In this document: piece after piece, positions 33,442-42,754 of the stretch
Numbering within the stretch: position 1 is the first letter of the stretch
Layout: the number at the start of each line of letters is the position of its first letter
NCBI GenBank assembly: GCA_016937855.1
Contig: JAFGVU010000086.1
Span: 1 to 50,870 of the forward strand
DNA: 50,870 bases
From: Bacteroidales bacterium
Lineage (GTDB): Bacteria; Bacteroidota; Bacteroidia; Bacteroidales; ML635J-15
Reading direction: 5' to 3'
The notes under the pieces: model-generated
The model's database searches: none
Seen by the model: only the letters and a program-made list of their open reading frames with translations
What the model was told of the DNA's origin: nothing
Position numbers and translations under genes: made by a program

Positions 33442-33483
33442 AATTTCAAATCACCATAAATATACACCTAATTTATTAATCAC

Positions 33484-33528
33484 TTAACACCTGCTTAACA
33501 ATTTCTTAACCTATCTAAAATAGTTTTG
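33484..33528 (+). promoter_or_regulatory. Pho-box-like triple direct repeat and -7 element of the porin/phosphatase operon
   Basis: TTAACA (33484-33489), TTAACA (33495-33500) and TTAACC (33506-33511) recur at exactly 11 bp, one helical turn, followed by TAGTTTTG (33521-33528, a match to TAnnTTTG) and ATG 33554. The half-site equals the TTAACA consensus of Bacillus PhoP boxes and the core of cyanobacterial PhoB boxes. The array takes the place of a -33 element, as expected for an activator. The remaining ~40 bp of this gap (33442-33483) shows nothing else. Confidence 0.75.
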
Positions 33529-33553: not shown

Positions 33554-35050
33554 ATGAAAAGAATTTCTACTATTTTCCTTCTAGCATCTATGATTTTTAC
33601 TGTTTCTCAGTCAGTTTTAAAAGCTCAAGAAAACGATGAAAAAATAAAAATATCGGGTTATATTCAAACTCAATATCAACAATTTTTTGTGCCCGATACA
33701 ATTGGTGGAACGACAAAGTACTTTTCTAACTTTAGTGGTGGTTCATTTACAAACGATTTAACATATAATCGTTTTCAGGTAAGGAGAGGAAGACTCTCTT
33801 TTACTCATGAAAACAAGCTTACAAACGCTAAATTATCATTCGATTTTACCGAAAAAGGATTTCATGTAAAAGACTTATATCTATCAGCAAAAGATCCTTA
33901 CTTAAAATCTTTTGAGATTACAGCCGGTCTTTTTAATCGCCCATTTGGATACGAAATAGAAAGATCGTCACAATATAGAGAAACTCCTGAAAGATCGAGA
34001 GTTGTGCAAACATTATTTCCCGGTGAAAGAGATCTAGGCTTAAAATTAAAATTCCGTTTACCCGAAGACTCTAACCTAAATTTCTTTGAAATATCCGCAG
34101 CGATTATAAATGGTAATGGATCAGCTATCGAAACAGATAATTATAAAGACATTATTGGTAATTTAAGGCTTTTTACTCCTTCGGACATGGAAAACTTTAA
34201 AGCATCAGCAGGATTCTCATACTACACCGGCAAGTTTCAACACGTTTACGAACCGGTTGACACATTGGCATCAAATGTAAACACAAAATACTACATATAT
34301 TATTTCGGAGAACTTGTTGATACAGCCGGAATTGCATATAAAGGTTTTTATATCGATTCGGCTCAAACATTAGCTTCGGGAACAACAGGAATTGGTGTTG
34401 CAAGAAAATATTACGGCATTGATGGACAACTCGAATTTCAGTCTCCATTTGGCAAAACCGAAATAGCCGCCGAATATATATGGGGCACACAACCTGCAGC
34501 AGTTAACAACAATAACATAGAAAAAGATTATGTAATTTACAATGACTTAAACACATATTCATCCACAGGGCCTTCTGTTGGAATGGCATGGCCTCTTCAT
34601 GATCAGCCTCAACCATATAACCCAACTATGGCAAAACTTACCAGCAAAAACCACTCAACAATGGTTAGAAACTTTAGTGGAGGTTACATTTGTGTTGTTC
34701 AAAACATAATGGACACAAAACATCAGATAGTAATTAAATACGATTGGTACGATCCAAACACTGATATTGCAGGAAAAGACATTGACCTACTTTATTACAA
34801 CGACACACTTGAAGTTGGCAAAACCTTTCTCTCTCCTGCTGATGTAAAATTCTCCACTATCGGAATCGGATGGAACTGGCAACTTAGCGAAAACCTAAAA
34901 CTTTCAGCATACTACGAAAATGTTACCAACGAAATTACATCTATCGAAAATTATATTGGCGATTTGAGATTAGGTAGAAGATCATCTCCAGGCTTTGATA
35001 GAGATATAAAAGACGATGTCTTTACCGTAAGATTACAATACAAATTTTAA
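33554..35050 (+). CDS. Phosphate-selective-type outer-membrane porin (OprO/OprP family)
   Basis: Outer-membrane beta-barrel of the porin O/P family (PF07396 type), 498 aa with a signal peptide ending near KAQ. Family features include the N-terminal ISGYIQTQYQQFF, FQVRRGRLSFTHENKLT, FEITAGLFNRPFGYE and PGERDLGLKLKF. The C-terminus ends in a beta-signal (FTVRLQYKF). In Pseudomonas this family passes phosphate and polyphosphate; Bacteroidota homologues are common in phosphate-starvation loci. It heads an operon of surface phosphoesterases and follows a Pho-box-like array, so it very likely admits the phosphate they release. A role for other anions cannot be excluded by sequence. Confidence 0.8.
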   Translation: MKRISTIFLLASMIFTVSQSVLKAQENDEKIKISGYIQTQYQQFFVPDTIGGTTKYFSNFSGGSFTNDLTYNRFQVRRGRLSFTHENKLTNAKLSFDFTEKGFHVKDLYLSAKDPYLKSFEITAGLFNRPFGYEIERSSQYRETPERSRVVQTLFPGERDLGLKLKFRLPEDSNLNFFEISAAIINGNGSAIETDNYKDIIGNLRLFTPSDMENFKASAGFSYYTGKFQHVYEPVDTLASNVNTKYYIYYFGELVDTAGIAYKGFYIDSAQTLASGTTGIGVARKYYGIDGQLEFQSPFGKTEIAAEYIWGTQPAAVNNNNIEKDYVIYNDLNTYSSTGPSVGMAWPLHDQPQPYNPTMAKLTSKNHSTMVRNFSGGYICVVQNIMDTKHQIVIKYDWYDPNTDIAGKDIDLLYYNDTLEVGKTFLSPADVKFSTIGIGWNWQLSENLKLSAYYENVTNEITSIENYIGDLRLGRRSSPGFDRDIKDDVFTVRLQYKF

Positions 35051-35069: not shown

Positions 35070-37748
35070 ATGAAAAAATACATTTTATTAATTGCATCCA
35101 TTTTTATTTCAGGAATTATTCTTGCCGGCACACAATATTACAGAGCATCATATCGTGACGATCCAACAACTACGATAGTTATTGGTTGGTGTGATAACGG
35201 AACATCAACAAACGCAACTGTTTATTACGGAACCGAAGATTATAGTACTGTTTGGAGCGCATACCCAATGACACATACAGTTGACAGAACAGTTAGTCAT
35301 CGTGGAAAAACAAATCGTTTTGCAAGATTAACAGGTTTAACTCCAAATACTGTTTATTATTTTGTAATTAAAGACGATCAGGGCACAAGTTCACGTATGT
35401 CTTTTAAAACTCTTCCAGACGACCCCAATATTCCTATTATGTTTATAAATGGAGGTGATACAAGAACAGGAGCATCCGGTTTTGAGTTTGAGACAGATTT
35501 ATGTGTACCTCGTCGTCAAAAAGGATTCGATTTGGTTGCTAAAATTCGTCCTGATTTTGTGGCATTTTCCGGTGATTATATTTTTGCCGAAAATTTCCTT
35601 GTCGGTGGTGATCAATTATGGAGCAACTGGCTCTCTGATTGGCAAAGGACTATTGGAGGTCCTGAAACAAAAGGACGCTTAATCCCGATTGTTGGAGTTT
35701 ATGGAAATCATGAAGATAATGGCGATCTTTACAATTTGTTCGACATACCTAACAGCAGTAATTATTACTCTTTTAGCGCAGGTAAACTATTTAGATTCTA
35801 TTGCCTTAACACGGATTTAGAATGTGATCAAACTCAGCTCGATTGGTTTACAAACGATTTAGACACATATACAGATAACGAAAACGAACCCTATTGGAAA
35901 TTTATTCAATATCACATTCCTCTTGCACCTCATGGTGAGTATAGTGTGTTACCTAGCTTAATTAACTGTTGGGCCACATTATTTGCCGATCATAATATCA
36001 GACTTAGTATGGATGGGCACTCGCATGTTATGAAAATAACAAATCCAATTTCTCCGGGCTCAGGTGCTGGTAGCGACAACGGATTTATTACTGATAATGA
36101 AACCGGGTGTGTTTACATTGGCGAAGGAAGCTGGGGGGCACCGATGAGAAATGTTTATACTGACGCAGGTGGAAAAGCATATAATTGGACTTATGATCAA
36201 GGAAAATTCCCTGGTTTCAATATTATTACAGTCCATAAACAAAAGTATGAGATTAGATCAGTTAATTTCGACAACACAAATCTGGCAAGTGTTCAGCAAG
36301 TTTCTCAAGACGATCCAGTGGGAACAATCCCGAGTGGTCTTGACTTATGGGTTATGAGTGGCAATAATGTTTTTACACTTTATAATAATGCTTTTGTTTT
36401 TAGTGATGATGCGAAACTTGTACAACTTTATACAAGTTCAGGAAGTTTAGTGCCAAACTTTTCTGCAACTACATATAATTACGAAGTTGAATTAGCTCCT
36501 GGAACAACAACAGTTCCCACAACCTTTGCTGTTCCAAATCATGCGGGAGCAACAGTGCAAATAACCAATGCTCAGAACACAACAGGAAGCGAATCAGAAA
36601 GAACAACTACAATTCTTGTAACAGCAGAAAACCAAACAAATACACAGGAATACACCATAGTTTTCTCAACACAAATTGCAGCAGATGCTACTCTATCTAA
36701 CTTAACAACAAGTCTAGGAGAATTAGCTCCATCATTTAGCCCAACAACTTATAATTACACTGTCGATTTGCCATCTGGTACAACAACAATACCTACTGTT
36801 ACTGCAACACCAAATGATCCTAGTGCTAATGTTCAAACTAACCAAGCTGCATCAACAGACGGAACAGCAACTGTGGTTGTAACATCTGCAGATTTAAGTC
36901 AAACAAATACATACACTGTCGATTTTGTAGTAGCCGCAGCTGATGCAAAAATGATTACTTCTTTTTCTGTTCCCGGCGAAATTCAAGCTGCAACAATAAA
37001 TCAAGCAGAATTTACAATAGTCTTACACATGTCAACCGGTACAAATGTTACAAATCTAATTCCCACAATAACTTATATCGGGCAATCAATTTCTCCATTA
37101 TCAGGAGTTGCACAAGATTTTACAAATCCTGTAACATACACTGTAACAGCTGCGGATTTAAGCACAGTTGAGTATTCTGTTTCTGTAAGTTTTGAAGATG
37201 TTATCTCTAACAACGCAAACCTAGCTAGCTTATCTGTTTCTCCGGAAGAGCTTACTCCTACATTTAATGCAGATGTACTTCATTATGATGTTACATTAGA
37301 CGTTGGAACAGAAAATGTCAACATTTTGGCTACTGCTGCTGACCCAAATGCCGAAGTTAAGATTTTTCCACCTTTCGACTTAATGGGTAGCACTGCTCAA
37401 AGAACAGGAAATGTAATCGTTATCGCACAAGATGAAACAACAAATAAAATTTATTCAATTGTTTTCAATGGAGCAAATAGTATAACTAGCGAAAAATCAT
37501 CAGGAAAATACTCATCAGTTTATCCAAATCCTGTAACAAATGAAATTAATATTGCAATCAACGAACAATTTGGAGATTGTAAAATTAAAATTCACAATGG
37601 ATTTGGTCAAAACATCTATGAGAAAGAAGTTTCAAAAGGTCAGGAAGAAATCAAATTTGATTTATCATCTTATCCTTCCGGAACTTACTTTGTTGTAATT
37701 ATAAACAATGAAAAATCAGATTTACATAGAATTATTAAAATAAAATAA
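35070..37748 (+). CDS. Secreted purple-acid-type metallophosphoesterase with cadherin-like repeats, T9SS cargo
   Basis: Surface phosphatase, 892 aa. The signal peptide ends at about residue 20. A purple-acid-phosphatase-type fibronectin domain (~22-115) precedes a calcineurin-like catalytic domain with GGDTR (128-132), SGDYIF (167-172), GNHED (212-216), YHIPLAPHG and DGHSH (315-319). It keeps the final GHxH that its paralogue at 10350 has altered. Three cadherin-like beta-sandwich modules (NLTTSLGELAPSFSPTTYNY is one) and one DUF5018-like module lie at ~450-800. A type A T9SS domain (VYPNPVTNEI) ends it. It starts 19 bp after the porin gene and 1 bp before the PhoD gene, so it is part of the Pho-box operon. 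Confidence 0.87.
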   Translation: MKKYILLIASIFISGIILAGTQYYRASYRDDPTTTIVIGWCDNGTSTNATVYYGTEDYSTVWSAYPMTHTVDRTVSHRGKTNRFARLTGLTPNTVYYFVIKDDQGTSSRMSFKTLPDDPNIPIMFINGGDTRTGASGFEFETDLCVPRRQKGFDLVAKIRPDFVAFSGDYIFAENFLVGGDQLWSNWLSDWQRTIGGPETKGRLIPIVGVYGNHEDNGDLYNLFDIPNSSNYYSFSAGKLFRFYCLNTDLECDQTQLDWFTNDLDTYTDNENEPYWKFIQYHIPLAPHGEYSVLPSLINCWATLFADHNIRLSMDGHSHVMKITNPISPGSGAGSDNGFITDNETGCVYIGEGSWGAPMRNVYTDAGGKAYNWTYDQGKFPGFNIITVHKQKYEIRSVNFDNTNLASVQQVSQDDPVGTIPSGLDLWVMSGNNVFTLYNNAFVFSDDAKLVQLYTSSGSLVPNFSATTYNYEVELAPGTTTVPTTFAVPNHAGATVQITNAQNTTGSESERTTTILVTAENQTNTQEYTIVFSTQIAADATLSNLTTSLGELAPSFSPTTYNYTVDLPSGTTTIPTVTATPNDPSANVQTNQAASTDGTATVVVTSADLSQTNTYTVDFVVAAADAKMITSFSVPGEIQAATINQAEFTIVLHMSTGTNVTNLIPTITYIGQSISPLSGVAQDFTNPVTYTVTAADLSTVEYSVSVSFEDVISNNANLASLSVSPEELTPTFNADVLHYDVTLDVGTENVNILATAADPNAEVKIFPPFDLMGSTAQRTGNVIVIAQDETTNKIYSIVFNGANSITSEKSSGKYSSVYPNPVTNEINIAINEQFGDCKIKIHNGFGQNIYEKEVSKGQEEIKFDLSSYPSGTYFVVIINNEKSDLHRIIKIK

Positions 37749-37749
37749 A

Positions 37750-39645
37750 ATGAAAATCACATTTGTCATAAGCCTTTTGCTTATCAGTATTTCGACACTA
37801 CTTGCTCAGCCATTAACCTCACAGTGTGGCAGACTTGAAAGCACTTTTGACCCCGATTTTGCTCCATTTTACCATGGCGTTGCTTCGGGTGATGCTCTTA
37901 GCGACAGAGTAATAATATGGACAAGAGTAACACCGGTTAATTATACTGAAAGCATTGATGTTGAGTGGTTTATGGCAGAGGATTCTCTTTTTGAGAATAT
38001 AGTTACTCAAGGAACCTTTACCACAGTTGAAGATATCGATTGGACAGTTAAAGTCGATGTAACCGGTTTAGAACCCGACACTTGGTATTTCTACTATTTT
38101 CGAGCCTTGGATTTAAACTCAATAATTGGTCGAACCAAAACAACCCCGGTTGGAGACACTGATAGTTTAAGGATTGCAACAATATCCGGCTCAAATTACA
38201 ACAACGGCTATTATAATGTATGTCATCAAATTGCAGTTCGTAATGATGTTGATTATATTCTGCATACGGGCGATTATATTTATGAATATGGCACCGACGA
38301 GTATGGTAATCACTCAGAGAGATCTCTACAACCGGGACATGAAGTTACAACTCTGTCAGATTACAGAATGCGATATTCACATTATCGTCTCGACCCCGAT
38401 TTAAGATACTCGCATCAGCAATTTGGATGGTATATTATTTATGATGACCACGAAACTGCAAATAACTCCTGGAAAGATGGAGCTGAAAATCATGATAGCG
38501 GTTCTGAGGGTGACTGGCAAACACGTAAGGAAAATGCCTTACAAGCTTATTTTGAATGGATACCAATGCGAGAAATTAATGATCCTGAACATCCCGAAAA
38601 TAAAATACACCATACTGTTACTTTCGGTGATCTTGCAGCTTCAATAATGTTAGACACCCGACTCGAAGCTCGCGACGAACAAGGAGGCTTAGCAAACGAT
38701 AACAATCAAAAGCGATTGTTAGGCGATGCTCAATTCGATTGGTTAAAAATGGAATTATATAATTACGAATACACAACACCTATTAAATGGAAACTTATCA
38801 CACAACAAGTTATGATGGCTCCATTAAAAGTTGCAGGAATAGTTGTTAACAACGATCAGTGGGATGGATATCAATTTGAACGCCAACGTGTGCTAGATTG
38901 GATTTATGGAATGTCGATTAAAAACACTGTTGTTCTTACCGGCGACATACACACATCCTGGGCAAACGATGTTCCAAATCCTACAATTGGCGAATATGGT
39001 AGCAACGGGCAAGGTAGTGGAACTGTAGAATTTGTAACTCCATCTGTTACCAGCCCAAGTACAAATAGTTTTTTTGGTGGTATTGGATCGGGAGCTATTC
39101 AACTTGCAAATCCACACATGAAATGGGTTAACTTAGATGCAAGAGGATATTATATTTTAGATGTTAATAAAACAAGATGTCAAGCAGATTGGTATTTTAT
39201 TAATAATATAAACGACAGGAATTATGTTGAGTCATGGGCGGCATCATGGTATGTAAACGATCAGGAGAGCTTTTTACGCCAAGCCTCTATTCCTTCTATT
39301 AGAATGACACCAAACCCCGGACTTGCACCTGAATATCCAAACCAACTTGTAGAAGTAAATCAACTTTATTCAGACATTACTAACGAATTGGTAATTATTG
39401 GAGCATACCCAAATCCTGTTGAAGATAAAGTTTTTATTCAGTTTTTCATAAAAGATAGTCAAGAGATAAAATTAAATTTTACAAATAATTTAGGACAAAT
39501 AATGTTCTCAAAAACTTTTGTTTCTAAATGCTCAGATCTTAACTATTACGAATTAGACCTAAGCAATTATTCATCCGGTAATTACTTTGTAACAATAACC
39601 ACAGAATCAGGACTTTCAAAAACAAAACAAATAATAAAAAAATAA
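37750..39645 (+). CDS. Secreted PhoD-like phosphodiesterase/alkaline phosphatase, T9SS cargo
   Basis: PhoD-family enzyme in the porin operon. Sec signal peptide to LLAQ (20), no twin Arg. The PhoD N-domain (FAPFYHGVASGDA, VIIWTRVTP) precedes a metallophosphatase core: HTGDYIYEYG (172-181), YDDHETANNSW (231-241) and LTGDIHTSW. The DDHE..NN segment is canonical, unlike the paralogue at 21686, but the SCQ site is again changed, to SGSNY (146-150). A type A T9SS domain (AYPNPVEDKVF) directs it to the surface. One bp separates it from each neighbouring gene, an extremely compact operon. It should complement the metallophosphoesterase by covering other phosphate esters. Confidence 0.87.
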   Translation: MKITFVISLLLISISTLLAQPLTSQCGRLESTFDPDFAPFYHGVASGDALSDRVIIWTRVTPVNYTESIDVEWFMAEDSLFENIVTQGTFTTVEDIDWTVKVDVTGLEPDTWYFYYFRALDLNSIIGRTKTTPVGDTDSLRIATISGSNYNNGYYNVCHQIAVRNDVDYILHTGDYIYEYGTDEYGNHSERSLQPGHEVTTLSDYRMRYSHYRLDPDLRYSHQQFGWYIIYDDHETANNSWKDGAENHDSGSEGDWQTRKENALQAYFEWIPMREINDPEHPENKIHHTVTFGDLAASIMLDTRLEARDEQGGLANDNNQKRLLGDAQFDWLKMELYNYEYTTPIKWKLITQQVMMAPLKVAGIVVNNDQWDGYQFERQRVLDWIYGMSIKNTVVLTGDIHTSWANDVPNPTIGEYGSNGQGSGTVEFVTPSVTSPSTNSFFGGIGSGAIQLANPHMKWVNLDARGYYILDVNKTRCQADWYFINNINDRNYVESWAASWYVNDQESFLRQASIPSIRMTPNPGLAPEYPNQLVEVNQLYSDITNELVIIGAYPNPVEDKVFIQFFIKDSQEIKLNFTNNLGQIMFSKTFVSKCSDLNYYELDLSNYSSGNYFVTITTESGLSKTKQIIKK

Positions 39646-39646
39646 C

Positions 39647-41842
39647 ATGAAAAGTATTAGTATTTTCATTTTCGCAGTAATATTTACAATAACTGCTTAT
39701 GCTCAACATTTTAGCATCGATCCGTCAAACGGCTGCGGAAGTGCCGAAGTAAGTTTTACCAATCTACATCCTAGCGAAGGTTATACCCCACAAATGTTTA
39801 TAACAACAGGTTTTAATTACCAATGGGATTTTGGGAACGGAAACACATCAACTTCTGAAAACCCTGCACCAGAAATGTTTGATGGCCCCGGAGAATACCA
39901 AATACAATACACAGTAACTATCGACACAATTGGCTTCGAACTCAGCAAAATCGTTTTGGATGGTTATCTTGGCTGCACGGACCCGGAAGTTTTAGGAATT
40001 GGCGGTGATGTAGATGTATATATTGAATTGTATGATAACAATAGCAATTTATTAATTAGCACCGAAGACGACGCTGATAGCTATCAGGTTGATCCCGAAG
40101 AAAACAATCAACTCGAGTTTTCTCTGGGCTCATTAAATATTGGTTCTTCAATTCCTTTATGGCTAAAAATCATGGATAGTGACTCGGCTGACGCGGATGA
40201 CAATTGCATTGATGATGGAGAAGGTGATGGAACAATGATTGCTATTCAATTACCACCAAATAATGCCGATGGTTTTTTTGAAACAACAAAAGTTATTGAA
40301 ACAACAACTCCAAATGGTGATTTGACCATTACAGCATACTTCAACAAACCTGTATTAATCTTGTCACAAACACTAACAGTCGATGTTTTTCCTCTTCCCG
40401 GAGCACCATCGGTGGACAATCAAAATCTTAATCTTTGTGTAGGCTCTGAAATGCCGGTAATCGAAGCCAGTGGAGATAATATTGAGTGGTATGACGATGA
40501 AGAATTAGCAAATTTAATACATTCTGGGAACGACTTTACCCCAAACTTAGAGACTGAAGACAGCATTTATACTTTTTATGTAACACAAACCGACAATATA
40601 AACTCCTGTACTAGCGCAGCGACTGTAGTGACAATAGATTACGGCACAATGGCTTCGCCAACAATGGAAAACTATGCTTCTAGTTACTGCTATGGACAAA
40701 TAATGCCTGATTTTGTGGCTATTGGTGAAAACATAAATTGGTACTCTGACGAAAACCTAGAAAATTTAATAAATAGTGGCAACACATTAGAAGTTAGCAA
40801 TTACGATGTTGGTGAACATACATATTATTTTACACAATCAAATAGCGAACAAACTTGTGTTAGCGAAACTGCCGAATTATCTTTTACAGTTATTGATGCA
40901 ATACAAGCCAATATTACAAGTACTGATGTTTCATGTTTTGGTGGATCAGACGGAACCGCAAGTGTAGAAATAATTGCCGGAGATGAGCCATTTGCGTTTA
41001 ATTGGTCAGATGGTAGCACTAGTCAAAATTTAACAAACGCAGAAGCCGGAGATTATACTGTTACAATCAGAGACAATAACTTTTGCCTACTTGTGCTTGA
41101 TGCTGTTATTGGCAGTCCCAACGAATTAAACATAGTAACAACAGTAGAATCGGGTTTTTGTCCATATCACGAAGTTGGTAGAGTAACTGCAATTGTTACC
41201 GGTGGTACTGGAAATTATTCTTACCAATGGTCTAACGGCTCACAAGATGACTTTGCAGATACATTAACTGAAACATTTTACACTCTAACTGTAACAGATG
41301 AAAACTCGTGTCAAAAAACTGCCGAAGTTGAGATTGAACAAACAGAAGATTTTGTTATCAGTAAAATAATTACAAAAGCTTCATGTCCCGACAACAGCGA
41401 TGGTGTTATTTCCATAAGCACAACAGGTGGAACAGCTCCTTATGAATTTTATTGGGAAAATGGAGTTACAGATACTATTGTTGAGAATTTATCAGCTGGA
41501 ACTTATTCAATAACAATAACCGACTTCAAAGGATGTACACATACCGAAAACATAGATATTGACAACACATACAGTATATGTCTAGTGCCGGCAAGCGTTT
41601 TAACTCCAAATAACGATGGCAAAAATGACTATTGGAAAATTATGTTTATCGAAATGCACCCGCAAGCTGAGGTATTTGTTTATTCGAGAGCAGGACAGTT
41701 AGTTTTTAATTCAACAGGATACAATTCTGATTGGGATGGAACAAATAACGGCAAAGTATTACCAACCGGATCATATTTGTACATCATAGATTTAAAGGAC
41801 AATTCCGATCCAATGAGAGGCTATATTGATATTATCAGATAA
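39647..41842 (+). CDS. SprB-repeat/PKD surface protein with type B T9SS (CHU_C) domain
   Basis: A 731-aa exported protein, signal peptide to AYAQ (~20). A PKD-like segment (~35-110; YQWDFGNGNTSTSENP) comes first, then two Ig-like Cys modules (~250-420; CVGSEMPVIEASGDNIEWYD) and three SprB-type repeats (~425-640; SCFGGSDGTASVEI, FAFNWSDGSTSQNL). The end is the gliding-motility-associated C-terminal domain: VLTPNNDGKNDYWKI, YSRAGQLVFNS, LPTGSYLYII. That type B signal generally works with a neighbouring PorP/SprF protein, and one follows 3 bp downstream. Placed behind three phosphate-uptake genes, it may anchor the phosphatases or bind particulate organic phosphorus, which is inference. Confidence 0.8.
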   Translation: MKSISIFIFAVIFTITAYAQHFSIDPSNGCGSAEVSFTNLHPSEGYTPQMFITTGFNYQWDFGNGNTSTSENPAPEMFDGPGEYQIQYTVTIDTIGFELSKIVLDGYLGCTDPEVLGIGGDVDVYIELYDNNSNLLISTEDDADSYQVDPEENNQLEFSLGSLNIGSSIPLWLKIMDSDSADADDNCIDDGEGDGTMIAIQLPPNNADGFFETTKVIETTTPNGDLTITAYFNKPVLILSQTLTVDVFPLPGAPSVDNQNLNLCVGSEMPVIEASGDNIEWYDDEELANLIHSGNDFTPNLETEDSIYTFYVTQTDNINSCTSAATVVTIDYGTMASPTMENYASSYCYGQIMPDFVAIGENINWYSDENLENLINSGNTLEVSNYDVGEHTYYFTQSNSEQTCVSETAELSFTVIDAIQANITSTDVSCFGGSDGTASVEIIAGDEPFAFNWSDGSTSQNLTNAEAGDYTVTIRDNNFCLLVLDAVIGSPNELNIVTTVESGFCPYHEVGRVTAIVTGGTGNYSYQWSNGSQDDFADTLTETFYTLTVTDENSCQKTAEVEIEQTEDFVISKIITKASCPDNSDGVISISTTGGTAPYEFYWENGVTDTIVENLSAGTYSITITDFKGCTHTENIDIDNTYSICLVPASVLTPNNDGKNDYWKIMFIEMHPQAEVFVYSRAGQLVFNSTGYNSDWDGTNNGKVLPTGSYLYIIDLKDNSDPMRGYIDIIR

Positions 41843-41845
41843 AAA

Positions 41846-42754
41846 ATGAAAAACGAAATGAAAAAAATAATAGTAGTATTAAGTGTGATTCTGTTCGCAG
41901 TAAACCTATTTGCCCAAAACGAACCAGTTTTTAGCAATTATTTAACAGAAAAAACAATAATAAATCCGGCAGCTGCAGGTACAAACCCAAACACAAAAAT
42001 AAATCTATTAGCTAAAAATTACTTTTTGGGATTTGCCGAAAAAAATCCCGGAACTCAAGTACTTAGCTTAAGCACTAAAAAAGACTATTACGGCATTGGA
42101 TTAATCTTAAGCAACGATTATTTTGGCAATACTCGAAGCACTGTTTTTAATTTGGCTTACGCATATCACCTAAAACTCAATGATATCGGGTATGTTTCGA
42201 TATCGTTAGCTCCAAAATTTAGACAATTTGCACTCAATCAGTCCGAATATCAATATTTTGACAATGATGACCCCGCGATTAGTGGGACAACTGAAAGCAA
42301 AATAGTTTTTGATGCAGATTTTGGGGCTGCTATTTATTCTGATTCATATTATGCTGCTATAGGCGTAAAAAACCTATTAGAGCCAAATGTTAGCTTAGGA
42401 GGAAACACATCTGAGGAAAACAAAATACTTCGAGTTTTTAATCTTAATGCAGATTACAAATTTATGTTTAACGATGATTTTCATTTAGAACCTTCGCTTT
42501 ATTTTGCTTATTCGAGTGCCGATTTGTTTTATGACATTAATGCACGTGCAATAATTAAAAACCTAATATGGGCAGGAGCGTCTTACAAAAGCACGAAAAG
42601 TATTTCGGTAATGTTTGGTGTTATGTACAAAAATATACATTTTGGCTATGCTTACGATCATTCATTTGCAAAAATATCTAGTTTTAGCAATGGTTCGCAC
42701 GAAATTGTACTTGGTTATGAGTTTGTTAAACCGGAATCAAAGGCGAAAATGTAA
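41846..42754 (+). CDS. PorP/SprF family type IX secretion-associated outer-membrane protein
   Basis: Outer-membrane barrel protein of the PorP/SprF family, 302 aa. The signal peptide ends near LFAQ. The family opening NEPVFSNYLTEKTIINPAAAGT matches its conserved asparagine-proline-alanine-rich start. Repeating amphipathic strands follow, with a C-terminal HEIVLGYEF strand. Members export or anchor a partner carrying a type B T9SS domain, here the product of the preceding gene 3 bp away. A second in-frame ATG lies 12 bp downstream of the chosen start. This dedicated pair closes the Pho-box operon. Confidence 0.85.
   Translation: MKNEMKKIIVVLSVILFAVNLFAQNEPVFSNYLTEKTIINPAAAGTNPNTKINLLAKNYFLGFAEKNPGTQVLSLSTKKDYYGIGLILSNDYFGNTRSTVFNLAYAYHLKLNDIGYVSISLAPKFRQFALNQSEYQYFDNDDPAISGTTESKIVFDADFGAAIYSDSYYAAIGVKNLLEPNVSLGGNTSEENKILRVFNLNADYKFMFNDDFHLEPSLYFAYSSADLFYDINARAIIKNLIWAGASYKSTKSISVMFGVMYKNIHFGYAYDHSFAKISSFSNGSHEIVLGYEFVKPESKAKM

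Follow-up and report, generated by a model that had tools for sequence, protein, structure and literature searches.

Is the repeat array that precedes a porin-phosphatase gene cluster in this Bacteroidales genome a control site for phosphate starvation, and how would such a site be fitted to a Bacteroidota promoter? The window, by which we mean the whole stretch of 50,870 nucleotides that was analyzed, has a GC content of 0.34. A preliminary description had singled out in it a PhoB/PhoP-type operator made of three TTAAC(A/C) half-sites at exact 11-bp steps. Reading the letters, we find the half-sites as described, starting at 33484, 33495 and 33506 (TTAACA-CCTGC-TTAACA-ATTTC-TTAACC, 33484-33511), and 17 of the 18 positions agree with the consensus (TTAACA)x3, as had been claimed. 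The distance of 15 bp given to the -7 element is correct when counted from the start of half-site 3; from its end, the distance is 9 nt. In F. psychrophilum, the TAnnTTTG element is placed at -12 to -5 (PMC9723704), and the approximate promoter positions below assume the same placement:

33473..33478, + strand: TTATTA, a weak fourth half-site 11 bp 5' of half-site 1
33484..33489, + strand: half-site 1, TTAACA, about -49 to -44
33495..33500, + strand: half-site 2, TTAACA, about -38 to -33
33506..33511, + strand: half-site 3, TTAACC, about -27 to -22, promoter-proximal
33512..33520, + strand: 9 nt between half-site 3 and the -7 element, a spacing that is enriched among pstS promoters
33521..33528, + strand: TAGTTTTG, matching the -7 consensus TAnnTTTG of Bacteroidota (sequence and placement as in PMC9723704)

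With this placement, transcription would start at about 33533. The porin ATG at 33554 lies 25 nt past the end of TAGTTTTG. A Pho box is expected to contain at least two direct half-sites at 11-bp steps, to lie just 5' of the -10 or -7 element, some 10 bp away in E. coli, and to precede phosphate-acquisition genes. The array offers three exact half-sites and a weak fourth, and 9 nt separate it from TAGTTTTG. Downstream lie five genes, with intergenic gaps of 19, 1, 1 and 3 nt, that form a putative operon:

33554..35050, + strand: Porin_O_P-like outer-membrane porin, first gene (Pfam PF07396, weak, E 8.9e-6)
35070..37748, + strand: purple-acid-type metallophosphatase with a T9SS tail (PF16656, PF00149, PF18962)
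37750..39645, + strand: PhoD-like phosphatase with a T9SS tail (PF09423, E 6.1e-96; PF16655, PF18962)
39647..41842, + strand: large secreted protein with a CHU_C (type B) signal and SprB repeats (PF13585, PF13573)
41846..42754, + strand: PorP/SprF-like protein, last gene (PF11751, E 2.4e-58)

The two phosphatases, the type B cargo and the PorP protein named in the preliminary description are clear by Pfam, but the porin match is weak; phosphate acquisition is thus represented by the two phosphatases together with that weak Porin_O_P match. A relative, Bacteroidales bacterium SZUA-560 (L109), has five ORFs of similar size in the same order, and the two identities measured for this operon (L109/G003) are those of the PhoD protein (73%) and the porin (76%, G003).

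If the array is an operator, it should be traceable at the same promoter in relatives, and absence from orthologous porin promoters had been named beforehand as an observation that would speak against it. Close orthologues of the porin are found in three of 25 congeners (G003, G004 and G015). A MAFFT alignment of the four porin upstream regions misplaced two rows, and the register was instead taken from the -7 box. Counted back from this box in 11-bp steps, the half-sites read ATAATA TTAACA TTAATC in G003, TTAACA TTATGA TTAAGA in G004, and TTAACA TTACGA TTAATG in G015. In all four promoters, that of the window included, a 9-nt gap then leads to TAGTTTTG or TATGTTTG. The register and the gap are therefore kept, with half-sites that are degenerate in the orthologues. 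Because the G004 and G015 upstream regions are much alike, the two together add little beyond a single comparison. The porin orthologue of G015 (L052) also carries one in-frame TAA near its N-terminus, which may reflect a broken gene, a sequencing error or a different start.

The same arrangement recurs at phosphate-uptake genes of the class. We scored 73 pstS upstream regions (strong TIGR02136 matches; 73 of 74 loci, with L230 left out because its upstream region is too short) for a TTAAC-TTAAC pair followed by TAnnTTTG, requiring at least 14 of 16 positions, over steps of 7-16 and gaps of 0-30, or 310 settings, and counting related genomes unweighted. The step of 11 and the gap of 9 were fixed by the window, whereas the gap of 20 had already been seen at pstS and C71 loci when the counting began, so that tests including gap 20 are not fully a priori. 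The top two settings (step, gap) were (11,9) and (11,20), with 12 loci each, six of them common to both; (11,7) came third with 6 loci, the mean over settings was 0.37, and the best antisense setting reached 4. Exclusion of the six loci that had been examined previously, themselves or as copies in their genomes, left 67, of which 10 fit (11,20) and 9 fit (11,9), with a mean of 0.33. A score of 14/16 or higher with a gap of 9 or 20 is reached by 18 of 73 pstS upstream regions, from 13 families, as compared with 2 of 273 control upstream regions (20 stretches from 20 of the same genomes); the scores of 55 of the 73 fall below 14/16. For gap 9 alone, again with the previously examined loci excluded, the counts are 9/67 for pstS and 1/273 for controls. 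Distances between TTAAC pairs (9/10 positions) at pstS peak at 11, with 27/73 in sense, 17/73 in antisense and 8/273 in the controls. The antisense pairs perhaps belong to arrays of divergent genes.

At PHO4 genes, (11,31) with 13 and (11,20) with 12 of 40 upstream regions of relatives come out on top among 360 settings, whose mean is 0.46; the best antisense setting reached 4. These 40 remain from 47 long-type genes among the matches listed (chosen by eye; one of 651 aa) after removal of three with exact triples and of four others. The signal is weaker at PhoX, where 29 of 30 loci across the phylum were kept (L199 was left out): (11,20) with 7 and (11,9) with 6 lead at a laxer threshold of at least 13 (mean 0.54), but at the threshold of at least 14 the counts are thin, with 3 each for (10,20) and (11,20) and 2 for (11,9). 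One PhoX upstream region, L189 of G116, displays near-perfect 11-bp repeats of GTAAYCTTTCN, a variant half-site.

One 11-bp step separates each of the gaps of 9, 20 and 31 nt from the next, which means that the array stays in phase with the -7 box. Because a gap can look longer than it is when the last half-site is degenerate, the phase rule is firmer than any claim about true distance. On balance, we lean towards a single Pho box throughout the Bacteroidia, composed of tandem TTAACA at 11-bp steps with a gap to TAnnTTTG of 9 + 11k nt (9, 20, 31). If this is true, the regulator would act adjacent to the -7 element or one or two DNA turns upstream, and the preferred k would vary by gene type, being 0 and 1 at pstS and 1 and 2 at PHO4. 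A Na/Pi-cotransporter-type gene on contig C126 of the window's genome (L111) has TTTACA-N5-TTAACA and TAAATTTG at gap 7 (15/16), off this phase; together with the third place of (11,7) at pstS, this pair suggests that gap 7 may be a variant.

To rank the site within its genome, we used a profile, R1, of 56 positions built from 17 pstS promoters of families other than its own, one of 18 sites having been dropped because it was aligned one step off. As the pstS sites were picked by the very score that R1 encodes, the profile is independent of the window's genome, not of the motif idea. R1 scored 150 of 4097 candidates in that genome and returned 29 matches at E up to 10. Best of the 150 scored was the window site (21.6 bits, E 0.0012), followed by an array at C71:6601-6644 (18.5 bits, E 0.013). 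Eleven further matches were examined (L280-L290): one precedes a TonB receptor and another a secreted protein with fn3 and Pur_ac_phosph_N domains, each with a 9-nt gap, and the remaining ones have no evident phosphate link. In G084, which lies outside the R1 training set, the R1 sites on the top three promoters stand ahead of PhoU_div/PHO4, a PBP_like_2 (PstS-type) protein and a PhoB-like regulator, the triples there having been known before this search. The G003 porin site is sixth of seven R1 matches (E 0.22). The G003 counterpart of the C71 array is absent from the matches at E up to 0.3, as are the porin sites of G004 and G015, in which the best R1 site precedes a phosphate acetyl/butyryl transferase-type gene. 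Arylsulfotransferase-like genes of two genomes have their starts beside TTAAC arrays, G000:C141:8786-8833 (L281) and G003:C87:79844-79880 (L416), in differing orientations.

Which regulator would occupy the array? The window's genome encodes five OmpR-family regulators, two of them PhoB-like:

L130 1407-2090: PhoB-like regulator on contig C71
L132 1458-2153: PhoB-like regulator on contig C171

The two are 56% identical and have the same recognition-helix sequence (GDRTIDVHIRKLREK). Both score below the cut-offs of the PhoB models TIGR02154 (189.5 and 207.7; cut-off 296.2) and NF053854 (187.5 and 209.9; cut-off 270). Besides the regulator, the 9963-base C71 contig contains a lipoprotein-like ORF in divergent orientation and a TonB receptor; no kinase-like ORF was seen on it. 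Two arrays in phase lie at this PhoB-like locus, and both promoters keep the same phase in G003. By description, the layout resembles that in F. johnsoniae, where a lipoprotein and a TonB receptor are linked to phoBR (PMC8115612). The end of the C71 contig (L130 1-426) is a low-complexity tandem repeat, SWKLEVGSGKLEVGS-like when translated. The C171 regulator is followed by a kinase-like ORF and adjoins a MoxR-like ORF (both named by eye). With identical recognition helices, the two regulators may share, or compete for, the same sites. PstS, PhoX and PHO4 have no match in this genome (95% complete), which contains secreted phosphatases as well as two genes that match a PhoU domain.

The pair of regulators also gives rise to the best-surviving alternative, which we nevertheless consider unlikely: that a different regulator of the OmpR family, chiefly one of the PhoP-like C171 type, reads this half-site, and that the operon answers to envelope or redox signals, not to phosphate. 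The kinship of C171 with C71 and their common helix sequence are compatible with it. So is the DAP-seq motif of Riemerella PhoP, whose core TTTAACA is called highly similar to that of ArcA by the authors, in a paper whose main text lacks words starting with 'pst' or 'phosphatase' (PMC9603813); this core suggests that the half-site may be common to PhoB-like paralogues. Against this alternative, arrays of the same step and phase are enriched at pstS and PHO4 and, more weakly, at PhoX, and the intergenic region between the MoxR-like ORF and the C171 regulator holds but a moderate array (best 12/15), on the strand towards MoxR. Moreover, cross-binding would not exclude phosphate control; phoPR of Riemerella is itself raised in phosphate starvation (PMC9603813). 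We regard the window array as very probably a Pho box adapted to the TAnnTTTG promoter of Bacteroidota, and thus a putative phosphate-starvation control site, because like repeats at the same promoter distance precede many phosphate-uptake genes in relatives. As a predicted operator, the PhoB/PhoP-type site first proposed draws support from phasing, orthologue register and profile rank alike.

Could the array instead be a chance run of TTAAC in an AT-rich intergenic region? The letters of the triple, taken by themselves, give this reading some room. The exact triple occurs once in the 4,441,848-base genome (reversed pattern, 0) and in none of the 25 congeners (G001-G025); in 100 genomes, this one included, there are 19 exact triples and 11 reversed controls, an excess that only modestly surpasses chance and makes the triple weak evidence when taken alone. 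We rejected such counting as proof. With up to two mismatches, triples number 46 in the window's genome as compared with 88 for the reversed pattern and are thus not in excess. Within the window, the loose triple has 4 matches, two of them overlapping at the site, where 0.57 are expected, and none of 100 shuffles reaches 4. A pair plus -7 element with up to three mismatches has 5 matches (2.70 expected; 15 of 100 shuffles reach 5), and the sole perfect one is at 33495-33528. Three TTAAC at 11-bp steps place a TAA in every frame of both strands; the triple hence cannot fall inside an ORF, its intergenic position is forced, and we rejected that location as support. A one-mismatch site of the same genome, C91:16480, was set aside: its flanking ORFs (TusA/YeeE-like and CRP-like, named by eye) are not phosphate genes.

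Eighteen exact triples lie outside the window's genome, and 15 of them are followed within 350 bp by the start of a same-strand ORF of 80 aa or more. By Pfam, a PHO4 phosphate transporter lies downstream of three of the 18, PhoU_div followed by PHO4 of one, and Hsp90 of one; one more precedes a PhoB-like response regulator that shares 58% identity with that of C171, and another a homologue of the C71 lipoprotein (41% over 341 aa). Eight of the 15 ORFs are without a Pfam match. The promoter of the PhoB-like regulator in G084 reads TTAACA TTAACT TTAACA, 20 nt, TAATTTTG. Random occurrence of triples elsewhere had been named as evidence against an operator, and here the excess of exact triples is mild (19 and 11), but 4 of the 18 outside triples precede phosphate-transport genes. 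What weighs most against random occurrence is the strong enrichment, at pstS and PHO4, of arrays phased to the -7 element. The case for a Pho box rests on this phasing, the exact triple being weak evidence. Together with the register kept in the orthologues, the step and gap statistics, and the top rank under a profile trained elsewhere (150 of 4097 candidates scored), it makes a chance run very improbable. Less probable still is a structured RNA leader or other repeat element in the array interval, since the window yields no Rfam match at or above the gathering score, TRF finds no tandem array, and the array lies 5' of the predicted transcription start.

The window operator is foreshadowed by known Pho boxes. 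The PhoP box of Bacillus subtilis contains TTAACA-like repeats, similar in half-site and repeat arrangement, and sits at a Gram-positive promoter; Riemerella anatipestifer belongs to the same phylum as the window's organism. The E. coli PhoB box likewise consists of direct repeats with an 11-bp period; the protein binds them head to tail, and they lie about 10 bp 5' of the -10 box (PMC1906773, PMC4415409). Here, by contrast, the half-site is TTAAC(A/C) and not CTGTCAT, there are three repeats, the array is fitted to TAnnTTTG, and the gap is 9, 20 or 31 nt. The half-site had also been equated with the core of cyanobacterial boxes, rightly so: the SphR box is given as CTTAACCT, 8-bp repeats with a 3-bp linker in at least three copies (PMC1906773), and has in common with the window array the TTAAC core, the 11-bp period and three copies. 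It differs in phylum and promoter, the array here being locked to the Bacteroidota -7 element. The R. anatipestifer PhoP motif shares the half-site core TTTAACA, but the text reporting it gives no 11-bp array, -7 spacing, or pst or phosphatase target (PMC9603813). Bacteroides fragilis PhoB (BF1576) is comparable in being needed for pstC expression in low phosphate; a term search of that paper returned no box sequence (PMC3547664). Pho boxes have been predicted at plcP clusters of marine bacteria, in a report whose passages on them give no sequences (PMC4796936). Bacteroidota phosphate-starvation genes are already catalogued (e.g. PMC8115612). Among the matches listed from PMC main texts, none describes for Bacteroidota a TTAAC box of 11-bp period together with its spacing to the -7 element. 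The view that such a box is little described therefore stands with regard to a promoter spacing, within those matches, and has to yield with regard to the half-site, as the TTTAACA core is in print (PMC9603813). The class-wide spacing rule appears to be new.

The arrangement suggests how the site may work. When phosphate is short, a PhoB-type response regulator of the OmpR family would bind head to tail to the three (weakly four) TTAAC(A/C) direct repeats. Because the last repeat ends 9 nt before TAnnTTTG, the bound regulator would occupy the place of the -33 contact. From there it may recruit RNA polymerase, leading to transcription of the porin-phosphatase-phosphatase-cargo-PorP operon. A defined box with a spacing rule would make Pho regulons predictable across the class, and would render the action of a PhoB-type activator at the unusual TAnnTTTG promoter testable.
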